DNA of 64,000 nucleotides from an uncultured Saprospiraceae bacterium (GTDB lineage Bacteria > Bacteroidota > Bacteroidia > Chitinophagales > Saprospiraceae), in contig CAKZSH010000174.1 in NCBI GenBank assembly GCA_937918905.1, positions 1 through 64,000 on the forward strand, in the 5' to 3' direction. A program made the position numbers and the translations under genes. Each line of letters opens with the position of its first letter. The first letter of the stretch is position 1. The notes beneath the pieces are model-generated. The model had not been told where the DNA came from, ran no database searches, and saw nothing but the letters and a program-made list of their open reading frames with translations. This document shows, in pieces, positions 17,271 to 44,419 of this stretch.

Positions 17271-19733
17271 TCACAAATACGCTTTCAAAAACAAACACTC
17301 TTCAATAGCTTCTTTATAAAATTCAGTATCATTAAATTCAGTATTAAATCTCAAATAATACTTATTATAAGTTTCGGGTAAAATTGGGATTTCATTGTTA
17401 TAAGGATTGTAACGAGTATTCTTATCCATATAAAAATCATTCAAATCACACTTAGCCAACATAAAACAAGTACGGGCAGCCAACTCTTTATCTCTTGCCA
17501 ATTCCAATGCCGTTTCATAATATTTTCTTGCCTTATCCATTTTCATGTTTTCGATATTTCCAAGCTCAGATGCTGTGGTGAAATATCTATTTTCAGGATT
17601 GGCATATTGCCAATTAGCACCACTTCGAAACATATCAGCTGCTCTCCAAGAATCCCCAAAGTAAGTCATATTATAATACGCATTTCCTAACTGATAAAAT
17701 GCAGAAGCACCCGTTTCCAAATGTGCTCGACCCTGATATTCTAATTTTAGAATTTCGTCTAAAATACCAACCCGATCATATACCAATGTATCCGCCAAAG
17801 GGCAATGAACACAATCAATAATGTGCTCATGGAAAGGATTTAATTTAGGATCATTGTCACGGTCGTTGCGAGGTATTTTTCGAAAAGTTTCCAATGCTGC
17901 TTCAATTTTATCATTATTGAACATCTCGATTCCTTTGAGCGTCAACAAGTCACTTTTGATAGTTGTAAGTCCATCTTTTTTTACAAAAACCTCTTCAAGA
18001 TTACTCTTGATATCTTTATCACAAATCTTTAGGAGGTCTTCTATTATCTCCAAATCAGGATTCATTTTCAAAGCCTCTAAAGGATGTTTTAATCGAAAAG
18101 CCTTTCCCTTTTGTTTAGATTTTAAAAATACATCTCCCAACTTATCATTCAAGTAATCTGGAAAATCTTTGTAATCCCAGTAGTAAGGATTTTCCTTAAT
18201 GATATTTCCAATTTCATTTTCATCACTCAATCCCAAATCATCATCAAGCTGTGCAATTTTTAAAGCCAATTGAGCAACTTCCAATTGTTCTTTGAGTTCC
18301 TTTTTATCCGTAGGTAGATTGTTAGCAATTTTTTTAAAAGTAAGATCGGCCTCATAATAATCACCTCCTAAAAATGTCAAATACCCATCTGCCACTTTCC
18401 ATAAATCTAAATTGTTGACCTCTTTTTCATTGATACATTTTTTTACAAATTTCTTCAACTTTGTTAAATATATTCCAGCATCTTTTCTAGGAAATTTAAA
18501 ATTTCGTTGATTCCTTTTTTTGTTATCATTAAAATCAATTCCCAATAAATCTCTTTCAAGTTTAGTGATTTCTTTTACCAATAATAATTCTAGATTTTCA
18601 TTGGTAGGTTCGAGCCGATAGATTTGTTCCATTTCTTCTACGGCACGACTATCATCCGTATTGGCTCGAATGGTAAATAATGTAGCCCTTTCTTTATCAC
18701 TTTTACACAACAACATCAGCTCTTTCCATTGCTCATTATTTTTGATATAAAAACTTTGAAACGCAGATTGTCTTTTACTTGGACAGTTTTCAAAAATCAA
18801 AGAATACAAATAAGAGGCCTCAACATTTCTTCCCAATTTTCGCAATGCACCTGCCTTGTGTCCCATGATCCAATAGTCAATTAAGCTAGGATTGGCATGT
18901 ACTTTTCTGACCAATTCATCATGCAATTTTAAAGTGGCTTTATAACCTTTTGCATAATGTGCCAACCGAATTATTTGATACGCATATCGAAGCCGAACGT
19001 AGTGTGATTCTGTTTTGTAAAATGCTTTTTTTCCACGAGCGACCATTTTTTGCATAGCTTCGATATCTCGTTTTGGAGTACTCCAGCCATCCTCTGCTAC
19101 CACATGTGGTTCGCATTGTTTTGCAAAAATTAAATAGTTGATGACTTCCAAACATTTTTCATCACGAAGGTGATCGGCAAACGCATTTCCATTGAGCCGA
19201 ACAGGGAGTGTGGCTTTTTTATCCTTGACCGCATTGCGCAGTCTTTTGATGTCGTTAGCGGTTGCTTTGTAAATTACAGTTTTCAGTTCTTTGGGAGTGT
19301 ACATTTTACAAAATCGTTCGCTCCATTCTCGGATATTCTCATCTTGTTGAATAATTTGCAGGGAGTCGTAGGTAGGAATCAAATCATTGAACCGCAAAAA
19401 ATATTGAGCGTAGGTGGCATTAGTATTTACAATTTTTGGATTGAGAAAAGAGTAGCCTTCGAATTTTAATTCGAAGGGGCCGCAGCCCTTAGAAATTTGA
19501 TAAGGTAATGCTAAAAACAGAAGTATAAATAAAATAGAAAAGGGGAGGACGGATTTACGATTTGAGAATTGAGAAGTTTGTCGAATAATTTTGATAGCAC
19601 CATCACCGATATTCGACAAACTTCTCAAATCGTAAATCGTAAATCCGTTTTCCCTTTTTCTGTTTTTATTAGGAAGTATTTGTAGGAAATTAATCTCCTT
19701 TAAAAGCCTGAATAATATCTTGAAGATTCTCAT
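17271..19733 (-). CDS. Large hypothetical exported protein with TPR-like helical repeats; annotated N-terminus runs through a hairpin repeat
   Basis: Long ORF; hydrophobic segment ILFILLFLALPYQISKGCGPFELKF preceded by hairpin-encoded residues; true start uncertain. Confidence 0.65.
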   Translation of the reverse strand: MRIFKILFRLLKEINFLQILPNKNRKRENGFTIYDLRSLSNIGDGAIKIIRQTSQFSNRKSVLPFSILFILLFLALPYQISKGCGPFELKFEGYSFLNPKIVNTNATYAQYFLRFNDLIPTYDSLQIIQQDENIREWSERFCKMYTPKELKTVIYKATANDIKRLRNAVKDKKATLPVRLNGNAFADHLRDEKCLEVINYLIFAKQCEPHVVAEDGWSTPKRDIEAMQKMVARGKKAFYKTESHYVRLRYAYQIIRLAHYAKGYKATLKLHDELVRKVHANPSLIDYWIMGHKAGALRKLGRNVEASYLYSLIFENCPSKRQSAFQSFYIKNNEQWKELMLLCKSDKERATLFTIRANTDDSRAVEEMEQIYRLEPTNENLELLLVKEITKLERDLLGIDFNDNKKRNQRNFKFPRKDAGIYLTKLKKFVKKCINEKEVNNLDLWKVADGYLTFLGGDYYEADLTFKKIANNLPTDKKELKEQLEVAQLALKIAQLDDDLGLSDENEIGNIIKENPYYWDYKDFPDYLNDKLGDVFLKSKQKGKAFRLKHPLEALKMNPDLEIIEDLLKICDKDIKSNLEEVFVKKDGLTTIKSDLLTLKGIEMFNNDKIEAALETFRKIPRNDRDNDPKLNPFHEHIIDCVHCPLADTLVYDRVGILDEILKLEYQGRAHLETGASAFYQLGNAYYNMTYFGDSWRAADMFRSGANWQYANPENRYFTTASELGNIENMKMDKARKYYETALELARDKELAARTCFMLAKCDLNDFYMDKNTRYNPYNNEIPILPETYNKYYLRFNTEFNDTEFYKEAIEECLFLKAYL
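19537..19660. repeat. Long hairpin (family A) inside the 5' end of ORF 17271..19733
   Basis: ACGGATTTACGATTTGAGAATTGAGAAGTTTGTCGAATA / TATTCGACAAACTTCTCAAATCGTAAATCGTAAATCCGT. Confidence 0.95.
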
Positions 19734-20838
19734 AGGGGTGATTTTTAATCGTCGTTGTATCTAAATGATAAAAGCTGAGTGTGAGTTCTGAATTTGAAAT
19801 TTGTGGTTGCAATAATTTGGCAGTTTGCACCAAGGTATTTTGTGAAATGGTTTCCAAACGAATCACATCATCTTCATACAAATATCTCCCATTAAGATAC
19901 GTACTTTTTTTTATCTGAAAATGCGTTTTATCTTTTTGTAAAAAAAAGTTAGTATCAGCCATATCCTCAGCTTGAAGATGTGCCATTAATTTAATCATTT
20001 TACCACCTCGAAATAAAACGCCCCATGAAAAAATTGGTAAAGCGACATCCAAATTTAAAGGATATTTTTCAAAATTGTAAATATATTGTTTGGCAATTTC
20101 TAAATCAAGAATAGAATTTTTAGTTGCAGGATCTTTAACATCATCTACATTATAAAACATCAACATGCCACGATCAACTGGTGGCACTCCTGTACGTTCA
20201 AAATATTTGATTTGATGTAGTCGTATCGTCGCACTTAATTGAATTTCTTTTTGTGCAATTTCTTTTTTTATAAAATTCAATAACTGAAAATATTTTTCCT
20301 TTGTAGTTTCTGACCAATCACAATCAATTTGGATTTCGGAAATTTCTTTTTTGAGATAAAATATTTTCTCTAAAATATTTTTCCCTAAATCATTTATTTT
20401 CTCCAAAGGATAATTTTTCAAACTTCGATTGGTAATAAAAATGGTAGGAATGATTTCAACATTTTTCCAATCCGTAGAATCAAAAATAACTTCTGCCATC
20501 GGAAAAGGTTGGTTAGCTGCGGCATTCCAATCTACATCGAAAAATTTGACATAGAGTTTTTGAATAGGAAATTCTTGTAGGTAATCCTTTTCGGATGGAG
20601 TTAAGGAAAAGTTCGTTTGCCAATGATAGAAAGCTGGAGTTATTGTTTTTTCTTTTGAAGTACAAGAGGAAGTTAGGAACAGTATGCATACGATGAAAAG
20701 ACAAAATGAATATCGAATATCGAACAAGGAACAAGGAATTAAGAAGTTTTTCGAATAACGGTGATTCACAATTATTCGACCACTTCGACATTCCTTAGCG
20801 TCAGCGTTCCTTGTTCGATATTCGATATTCATTTTCAT
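19690..20838 (-). CDS. Putative lipoprotein, possibly TIM-barrel/DUF3142-like; 5' end overlaps a hairpin repeat
   Basis: FLTSSCTSKEK lipobox; IDCDWSETTKEKYFQLL...LSATIRLHQI...DRGMLMFYNVDD. Confidence 0.6.
   Translation of the reverse strand: MKMNIEYRTRNADAKECRSGRIIVNHRYSKNFLIPCSLFDIRYSFCLFIVCILFLTSSCTSKEKTITPAFYHWQTNFSLTPSEKDYLQEFPIQKLYVKFFDVDWNAAANQPFPMAEVIFDSTDWKNVEIIPTIFITNRSLKNYPLEKINDLGKNILEKIFYLKKEISEIQIDCDWSETTKEKYFQLLNFIKKEIAQKEIQLSATIRLHQIKYFERTGVPPVDRGMLMFYNVDDVKDPATKNSILDLEIAKQYIYNFEKYPLNLDVALPIFSWGVLFRGGKMIKLMAHLQAEDMADTNFFLQKDKTHFQIKKSTYLNGRYLYEDDVIRLETISQNTLVQTAKLLQPQISNSELTLSFYHLDTTTIKNHPYENLQDIIQAFKGD
20703..20836. repeat. Long hairpin (family B) within the 5' end of ORF 19690..20838
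   Basis: AAAATGAATATCGAATATCGAACAAGGAACAAGGAATTAAGAAGTTTTTCGAATAA / TTATTCGACCACTTCGACATTCC...CCTTGTTCGATATTCGATATTCATTTT. Confidence 0.95.
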
Positions 20839-21806
20839 CAGACAAGTCCTTCTCGTAACATATCATGCAAATGAACAACACCCACATATTTTCCATCATC
20901 TTCAACAATCAATTGAGTAATACTTTTATCTCGCATCATATTTAATGCTTTCATTGCTAAGACATCTTTTCCAATCGTCATAGGATTTTTAGTCATAATA
21001 TCTTTAGCGACGAGATGCTCCACCTGTTTTTGATTTTGAAGCATTCTACGGAGATCACCATCGGTAATGATACCTTTGATATGATGATTCGAATCAACGA
21101 CAATAGTTACCCCCAATCTTTTGGAAGTCATTTCAATAATCGTATTTCGAATATTTTCGTTTTCCAAAACAAAAGGTTTTTCATTCAAAGGATAAATATC
21201 GCAAACTCGTAAATACAACTGTTTTCCCAATGCACCTCCAGGATGATACTGTGCAAAATCATTAGGCGTGAAACCTCGCAATGCTAAAAGCGAAGAAGCC
21301 AAAGCATCGCCCAAAGCCATTTGTGCAGCAGTACTTGCAGTAGGCGCAAGGTTGTTAGGATCAGCCTCTTTGTCAATAGGAGTATGTAAAATAAAATCTG
21401 CTTGTTTGGCCAAAAAGGAATTTTTATTACTCACCATCCCAATCATTTTACTTCCAAGATTTTTAACCAAAGGAACGAGGACTTTGATCTCTGGAGTTTC
21501 TCCACTTTTAGAAATACACATAACAAAATCGTTGGGTTGAATCATTCCCAAGTCTCCATGAATCGCATCTGCGGCGTGCATAAAAAGAGAAGGGGTTCCA
21601 GTCGAATTAAAAGTAGCTACCATCTTTTTAGCGATGAGTGCACTTTTTCCAATTCCTGTAACAATAAGCCTTCCATCTGACTGAAAGATACTTTTGACGC
21701 ATTGACAAAAATCAGTATTGATGCTAGCTTGCAAAGCTTGAATTGCATCAGCTTCAATCTGAATAGTTTTTAAAGCAGTTTGTAAAATGATATTATTATC
21801 TTCCAT
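20838..21806 (-). CDS. kdsD: KpsF/GutQ family arabinose-5-phosphate isomerase (SIS + CBS domains)
   Basis: GIGKSALIAKKMVATFNSTGTPSLFMHAADAIHGDLGMI, SKSGETPE, CBS pair with DGDLRR. Confidence 0.92.
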   Translation of the reverse strand: MEDNNIILQTALKTIQIEADAIQALQASINTDFCQCVKSIFQSDGRLIVTGIGKSALIAKKMVATFNSTGTPSLFMHAADAIHGDLGMIQPNDFVMCISKSGETPEIKVLVPLVKNLGSKMIGMVSNKNSFLAKQADFILHTPIDKEADPNNLAPTASTAAQMALGDALASSLLALRGFTPNDFAQYHPGGALGKQLYLRVCDIYPLNEKPFVLENENIRNTIIEMTSKRLGVTIVVDSNHHIKGIITDGDLRRMLQNQKQVEHLVAKDIMTKNPMTIGKDVLAMKALNMMRDKSITQLIVEDDGKYVGVVHLHDMLREGLV

Positions 21807-22567
21807 AAAATTATCTCGAGCTACTCCGTAGGAGACAGAGGTGTTTTTGTAACGAAAAATAAGCAATAAATAATTTTCATTAAACTGATTTTATTATTGT
21901 GTCTGATCACTTTTTTTAACAAAAAAACTAGACAAAGAATCAATTTATTTTTGTAATTTCGACGGCTTTTGAAAAGTGCCATCAAACCTGAATGAAGTAA
22001 CCTCCCTTAAACCTCAGAGGTTTTTTTAATCAAAATCAAAGTAACAATCGTAATCCATAAAATGACTGGTGTAAATTCACCTCTGATTTTAGATTTTTTT
22101 CAATTGTAAAATTTAAAACCAGGATTACGATTTTTACCAAAATCAAAAACTGATAATAAGCGTTTTTACGTATTTTTTAAATTTTTATCAACACTTGATT
22201 ATTGATTTAAAAATCGTTTGATGGATTATCTTCCTGATAATAAGAGAATTTCTACCGTTTACTCGGATATTGATACGTACCATAATTTATAATAAAAAGA
22301 ATACGTTAATAGCCCGTAATAAACGAATTATTTTCTTATATTTACTAAGTAATAGTTTAAAAATAAATTTCAATTAATTTGAACAATTACGGTAATACTG
22401 GAAGTTAACTTACACATTAATTAAAAGTATTTTTTTTAAAATTAAAAGGCACAAACAACGTCTCTGATTATACCTGAATACTTATTAAAAAAAAAATTGT
22501 TCTCTGATTATTCTGTGTTGGAAGAACACAATTATCATCCTAGGACTTATAAAAAAGAAAAGAAACA

Positions 22568-36813: not shown

Positions 36814-36911
36814 GATTGTTAAATTGTTTCGCTTCGCTGATGGTTAGATTGTTATCTCAAAATCTATTGACAACAATCTAACCATCAGCGAAGCGAAACA
36901 ATTTAACAATC
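36814..36911. repeat. Hairpin with perfect 40-bp stem
   Basis: GATTGTTAAATTGTTTCGCTTCGCTGATGGTTAGATTGTT (36814-36853) / exact reverse complement (36872-36911). Confidence 0.98.
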
Positions 36912-44368: not shown

Positions 44369-44419
44369 GTTCTTTGACAAATTCCGTGTTTTAACTGACC
44401 ACGGAATTTGTCAAAGAAC
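44369..44419. repeat. Hairpin with perfect 20-bp stem (family F)
   Basis: GTTCTTTGACAAATTCCGTG-ttttaactgac-CACGGAATTTGTCAAAGAAC. Confidence 0.95.

Follow-up and report, generated by a model that had tools for sequence, protein, structure and literature searches.

A palindromic repeat, one among hundreds of hairpins in the genome of an uncultured Saprospiraceae bacterium and itself present in many copies, sits at the start of a lipoprotein gene, directly behind the stop codon of kpsF/kdsD, and the lipoprotein reading frame stays open through it. The explanation we favor, with a probability of roughly two in three, is that the repeat inserted in frame and is translated as an extension of the signal-peptide n-region, which would then be removed by processing. 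Recurrence in other genes and species, with unrelated repeats, suggests that such repeats are probably translated into a leader that is cleaved off. The pattern is wider than the single lipoprotein case and includes in-frame insertions within GT87 and GT9 genes and a frameshifting copy in an HTTM gene. This is a real multicopy in-frame palindromic repeat of a known kind, unusually concentrated in signal peptides.

The junction of kpsF and the lipoprotein gene

The window (the whole 64-kb stretch of DNA analyzed) encodes, 5' of the lipoprotein ORF (lipo), a kpsF/kdsD ORF for which the ATG at 21806 is a likelier start than the ORF's own (Table 1). The ORF scores 319 bits against TIGR00393, above the cut-off of 203.7; its best equivalog match is KdsD, at 334 bits, below the 505 cut-off. 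The first-pass annotation had placed the stop of this gene over the ATG of lipo, and indeed the TGA (20840-20838) shares a base with the ATG (20838-20836). No Pfam or NCBIfam family was found for the lipo ORF, which is conserved across Bacteroidota.

Table 1. Positions of the window features and of the informative genes found elsewhere in the same genome
Feature	Position	Strand	Basis or remark
kpsF/kdsD ORF, SIS and CBS domains, gene 5' of lipo	20838..21866	minus	Pfam SIS, CBS; TIGR00393
TGATG stop/start overlap, TGA of kpsF and ATG of lipo	20836..20840	minus	sequence
Palindromic repeat, family B, about 130 bp, 59-bp interrupted stem	20700..20839	minus
Lipoprotein ORF (lipo), 382 aa; informative gene	19690..20838	minus	translation
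In-frame TTG, codon 38 of lipo, hairpin 3' arm; nearest possible alternative start	20725..20727	minus
Signal-peptide hydrophobic core and lipobox, CLFIVCILFLTSSC	20662..20703	minus	translation; orthologs with hairpin-free lipoprotein signals
Next exported ORF (big); informative gene, hairpin of other family	17271..19733	minus	ATG 19731-19733
Second hairpin, sequence family A, in frame inside big N-terminus	19526..19671	minus
LptC; informative gene	L106:9743		TIGR04409
OEP/TolC-like outer-membrane efflux protein; informative gene	L110:7648
Periplasmic-binding lipoprotein; informative gene	L120:2160

The hairpin finder delimited the lipo hairpin at 20703-20835, with outer arms of 30 nt; by these boundaries it starts 2 nt past the KpsF stop. 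Its stem of 59 pairs takes in the lipo start codon, and the predicted RNA fold of 20660-20860 reaches -80.4 kcal/mol, compared with -38.6 +/- 3.7 for shuffled sequences (z -11.4). The N-terminus of the ORF reads MKMNIEYRTRNADAKECRSGRIIVNHRYSKNFLIPCSLFDIRYSF, and the frame continues open through the hairpin into the lipoprotein signal CLFIVCILFLTSSC, so the earlier description of a family-B hairpin followed in frame by such a signal stands. That description also held that no in-frame ATG follows the hairpin. The first one lies 203 nt on, within the mature protein; the claim had missed the non-ATG starts, a GTG at codon 24 and the TTG at codon 38, both inside the hairpin. From the end of the hairpin to the hydrophobic core there is no start codon, non-ATG codons included.

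Family B and other long hairpins of the genome

A search of the genome itself, in which 40 of 194 candidate places scored, bears out the proposal that family B is a real repeat family. It is a genus-level multicopy family of at least 40 copies. A 23-base arm word, ATATCGAACAAGGAACAAGGAAT, has 13 exact matches in the genome and none among 60 other genera of Saprospiraceae, and congeners (L009) also carry family-B hairpins whose arms match. The element was not found in plasmid, phage, or viral collections. Rfam returned nothing over its cut-off, only sub-threshold matches of miRNA-hairpin type, none of them at 20700-20840. When the flanks of 270 hairpins were checked for direct repeats, the clear family-B copies showed no target-site duplication; repeats of at least 6 nt flanked 11 of the 270 (shuffled mean, 2.5). 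We considered a RAYT/Y1 transposase as mobilizer and rejected it, as none of eight family words occurs around four Y1_Tnp loci.

Family B is one of several sequence families into which the hairpins of this genome fall. We counted 25 long hairpins within the window and 142 across 555 kb of contigs picked arbitrarily, or one per 2.6-3.9 kb, and a Markov control gave none. Their arms have a weak period of 7 (matches 0.36 at lag 7 versus 0.28). A congener, G004 (L230-L249), has 26 long hairpins in 398 kb, about fourfold fewer per kb.

Some other inverted repeats in this genome carry direct repeats at their ends. At 44369-44419 of the window, a short inverted repeat, GTTCTTTGACAAATTCCGTG, has a 9-nt direct repeat, TTAATTTTG, on its flanks and has the look of a genuine MITE that duplicated its target; a longer version is found at L111:14114. 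Hairpins at L216:4917-5069 and L145:1981-2132 have direct repeats of 8-9 nt exactly at their ends (GAAATGTTT, CTTTTGTT), and because of these, some hairpin families may transpose with target duplications.

Most hairpins lie just 3' of stop codons. In 43 of 80 tandem gene pairs of the arbitrary sample, the hairpin is no more than 30 nt past the preceding stop codon; the first sample contained 62 convergent gene pairs, with 34 hairpins between them, and 60 divergent ones, with 18; and in G004, 16 of the 26 are between convergent genes. The lipo hairpin fits this placement behind stop codons. All three counts favor the idea that the hairpin is mainly a structure of the kpsF 3' end, an mRNA stabilizer or leaky terminator, with the open lipo frame as a by-product. 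We hold this alternative to be tentative, a minority chance worth keeping in view, and it is compatible with a translated leader. However, it leaves the maintained frame unexplained, and the AT-rich arms do not resemble those of classic intrinsic terminators.

Openness of the reading frame

Whether the open frame exceeds chance can be judged from informative genes, by which we mean genes that lack any start codon from the hairpin to the signal core or conserved protein part. In stretches totaling about 1.09 Mb of the genome, we identified five such genes for exported proteins, eligibility being partly a by-eye judgment, and each of them is open from an ATG 5' of the hairpin; their sources are the window and loci selected for family B, and the arbitrary 555-kb sample held none. 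Since the per-frame openness of hairpins is about 10-11% (27 of 279; 0.112 in later counts), five of five would arise by chance with a probability of about 1e-5. The signal is confined to genes that lack a start after the hairpin: for all hairpins pooled, the frame of the downstream gene is not enriched for openness (11 of 93, versus 9 and 7 in the other frames). In genes where the hairpin interrupts the frame, a GTG or TTG follows it (window 36814, L255:5355, L111:11720, and L126). The first of these, an exported gene with its hairpin at 36814-36911, has GTG and TTG as nearest later starts. Closed hairpins at window 13084, L255:7214, and L257:4493 were left out as stretches before an ordinary ATG.

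For the family-B cases, the main rival is that the repeat supplies a new start: the TTG in its 3' arm (CCTTGTTC) would give MFDIRYSFCLFIVCILFLTSSC, leaving the remainder of the hairpin as untranslated leader. The lipo, LptC, OEP-like, and binding-protein copies each have an in-frame TTG in the 3' arm. The MacB-like gene at L110:5995, which we rejected as a read-through case because its orthologs (L270-L272) start at GTG or ATG past the hairpin position, likely starts at a GTG right after its hairpin and lends the idea further support. We nevertheless judge a 3'-arm start unlikely. An open frame through the remaining part of the hairpin is not needed under this view, yet it is seen in all cases. 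Nor can such a start serve big in this genome, where neither the 3' arm nor the sequence after it offers a start codon, or account for the internal GT87 and GT9 insertions.

Junctions in congeners and other relatives

The congeners and more distant relatives compared are Saprospiraceae MAGs, and the congener sites of lipo, big, and LptC were read without selection for openness, although some share ancestry. At the same junction, the lipo gene of L009 carries a hairpin of unrelated sequence (ACCGCAGAGTTA), and that of L011 carries a third kind (CCACCCCCCAGCC), both open to the signal peptide; upstream of the latter there is no in-frame ATG, only TTG. The lipo genes of L010 and L012 are hairpin-free and have an ordinary ATG. 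Their upstream DNA differs, and lipo itself thus has no clean empty site. For LptC, the frame is open through hairpins in L180 and L181, and L182 retains an in-frame remnant; by genome, G004 and G001 have in-frame hairpins (about -54 kcal/mol each), the G002 hairpin is decayed, and G003 has none. The kpsF-lipo junction is tight or overlapping in L034, L036, and L082.

Heptamer repeats were seen at this N-terminus in two more distant relatives. In L082, GTCAGTG tandem units right behind an overlapping ATGA form the open N-terminus of lipo, and in L017, CTTCCGC tandem heptamers are found there, with 156 open codons from an ATG.

The next exported gene, big, has no Pfam or NCBIfam family. Its start overlaps the 3' end of lipo by 44 nt (19690-19733), an overlap common in Bacteroidota relatives. 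Its own-genome hairpin is of family A, and in L009 and L010 big has in-frame hairpins of family B. In-frame remnants resembling a family-B arm occur in L011 (VRYSIF) and L012 (IRYSLF).

The recurrence of unrelated hairpins at the kpsF-lipo junction (L009 and L011), the stop/start overlap, and a predicted fold (-80 kcal/mol) that pairs the start codon would also suit a regulatory device, an attenuator or coupler in which the start is locked in the stem and freed only once a ribosome reaches the KpsF stop, so that re-initiation is strictly coupled. We consider such a device quite improbable, given the hairpin-free congeners L010 and L012 with their ordinary ATG, and given that hairpins across the genome sit behind stops whether genes overlap or not. 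Coupling is, moreover, usual for overlapping genes even without a hairpin.

An artefact or decay (a misassembled hairpin or a lipoprotein pseudogene) is very hard to sustain. In its favor are a draft assembly of 372 contigs, the difficulty of assembling hairpins, and the one copy that breaks an HTTM gene, but the 382-aa lipo ORF is unbroken and shares 71-75% identity with its congeners, and the same architecture occurs in relatives that were assembled separately. The proposal that insertion kept the frame open and gave a repeat-encoded leader is well supported, as five genes of this genome and congener orthologs with different hairpins are all open in places where the hairpin has no start after it.

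Empty sites and internal insertions

Congeners that lack the insert support insertion for four genes other than lipo: the OEP efflux gene (L184-L186), the binding-protein gene (L191-L194), GT87 (L195/L197), and GT9 (L273 and L275). The inserts in GT87 (L111:9892) and GT9 (L265:6508) are internal, in variable loops, and in frame; if the two proteins are produced, the inserts must be translated with them.

Not every insertion preserves the frame. At L115:6602-6720, a family-B copy shifts the frame of an HTTM-domain gene that is readable on both sides; we had considered it as an in-frame insertion and rejected that reading on finding the frameshift. This copy appears either to have broken the gene recently or to reflect an error in the sequence.

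Proposed insertion as a cleaved-off leader

Under the favored explanation of a translated and removed n-region extension, a genus-level family-B repeat would have entered directly behind the KpsF stop, just past the lipoprotein start codon. By our reconstruction, the undisturbed gene would begin roughly ATGAAA-CTTTTC, MKLFIVCILFLTSSC. As the genes overlap, there is no room behind the stop, and a repeat that lands there falls within the following gene and has to keep its frame. With the frame kept, ribosomes starting at the overlapping ATG would read the hairpin as an n-region extension of about 44 residues. The lipoprotein signal would act from inside the longer product, and processing at Cys59 would cut off the repeat-encoded part and so leave the mature protein unchanged. 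In-frame repeats may thus be tolerated in signal peptides because the leader is cleaved off.

Because the start codon lies in the stem, some dependence on KpsF translation is plausible, and it is possible that the hairpin couples the lipoprotein to KpsF translation or attenuates it. A far-reaching version holds that n-regions are a general safe harbor for translated repeats in this lineage, in which unrelated palindromic or heptamer-word repeats time and again enter the stop/start junctions of overlapping genes and stay in frame over genus-level time, and that the start-locking stem ties the exported protein strictly to translation of the preceding gene. We regard that combination as doubtful.

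Comparison with known repeats

The closest likeness is to the Rickettsia palindromic elements (RPE), which are long stem-loops of about 105-146 bp in several families, found between genes and in frame within protein genes (PMC2229807, PMC10969869). The repeats described here, at 133-140 bp with a 59-bp stem, share the long stem-loop architecture of 100-150 bp, and they too are inserted in frame in genes (lipo, big, lptC, OEP, binding protein, GT87, and GT9, with HTTM out of frame). They differ from RPE in their host, a member of the Saprospiraceae (Bacteroidota) rather than Rickettsia, in their usual placement after stop codons, in the use of one site by several unrelated families, and in that their coding insertions are mainly in signal-peptide n-regions. 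We therefore liken them to RPE by architecture, not by sequence, as probable analogs, and do not claim membership.

Yersinia offers a second parallel. RU-2/YPAL and ERIC/RU-1 are small hairpin repeats whose ORFs are fused in frame to genes, and the signal peptide of the exported protein YPO1552 is partly repeat-made (PMC2229807, PMC2759123). There, a repeat helps to form the signal peptide of a putative new protein, whereas here, time and again and in more than one species, repeats lengthen signals that conserved genes already had; this likeness, too, is one of architecture. Correia/NEMIS elements are multicopy hairpins beside genes, with a 107-bp form that has ORF fusions (PMC2229807), but they have terminal repeats and target duplications, and family B is without target duplication.

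The resemblance to REPs and REPINs lies in high-copy palindromes outside genes. REPs are 20-40 bp long and have tag ends (PMC3733652). The present repeats measure about 100-140 bp, with no family words at Y1 transposase loci, and so differ from REPs served by RAYT. As in MITEs, there are terminal inverted repeats, the whole element being an inverted repeat, but family B lacks the target-site duplication. The hairpin arms share period-7 self-similarity with the STRR heptanucleotide repeats of cyanobacteria and other bacteria, which are tandem runs rather than hairpins (PMC4692102). In the open-access literature searched, we found no description of such repeats in the Saprospiraceae lineage.

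Significance

Palindromic repeats inserted in frame are already known from Rickettsia and a few other lineages; here they occur in Saprospiraceae and recur in a part of the protein that would be cut off. Start sites annotated downstream of hairpins may accordingly be wrong. These cases suggest a simple rule for where mobile DNA may enter coding sequence harmlessly, one that could be tested by comparison alone because several unrelated repeats are found at one junction.
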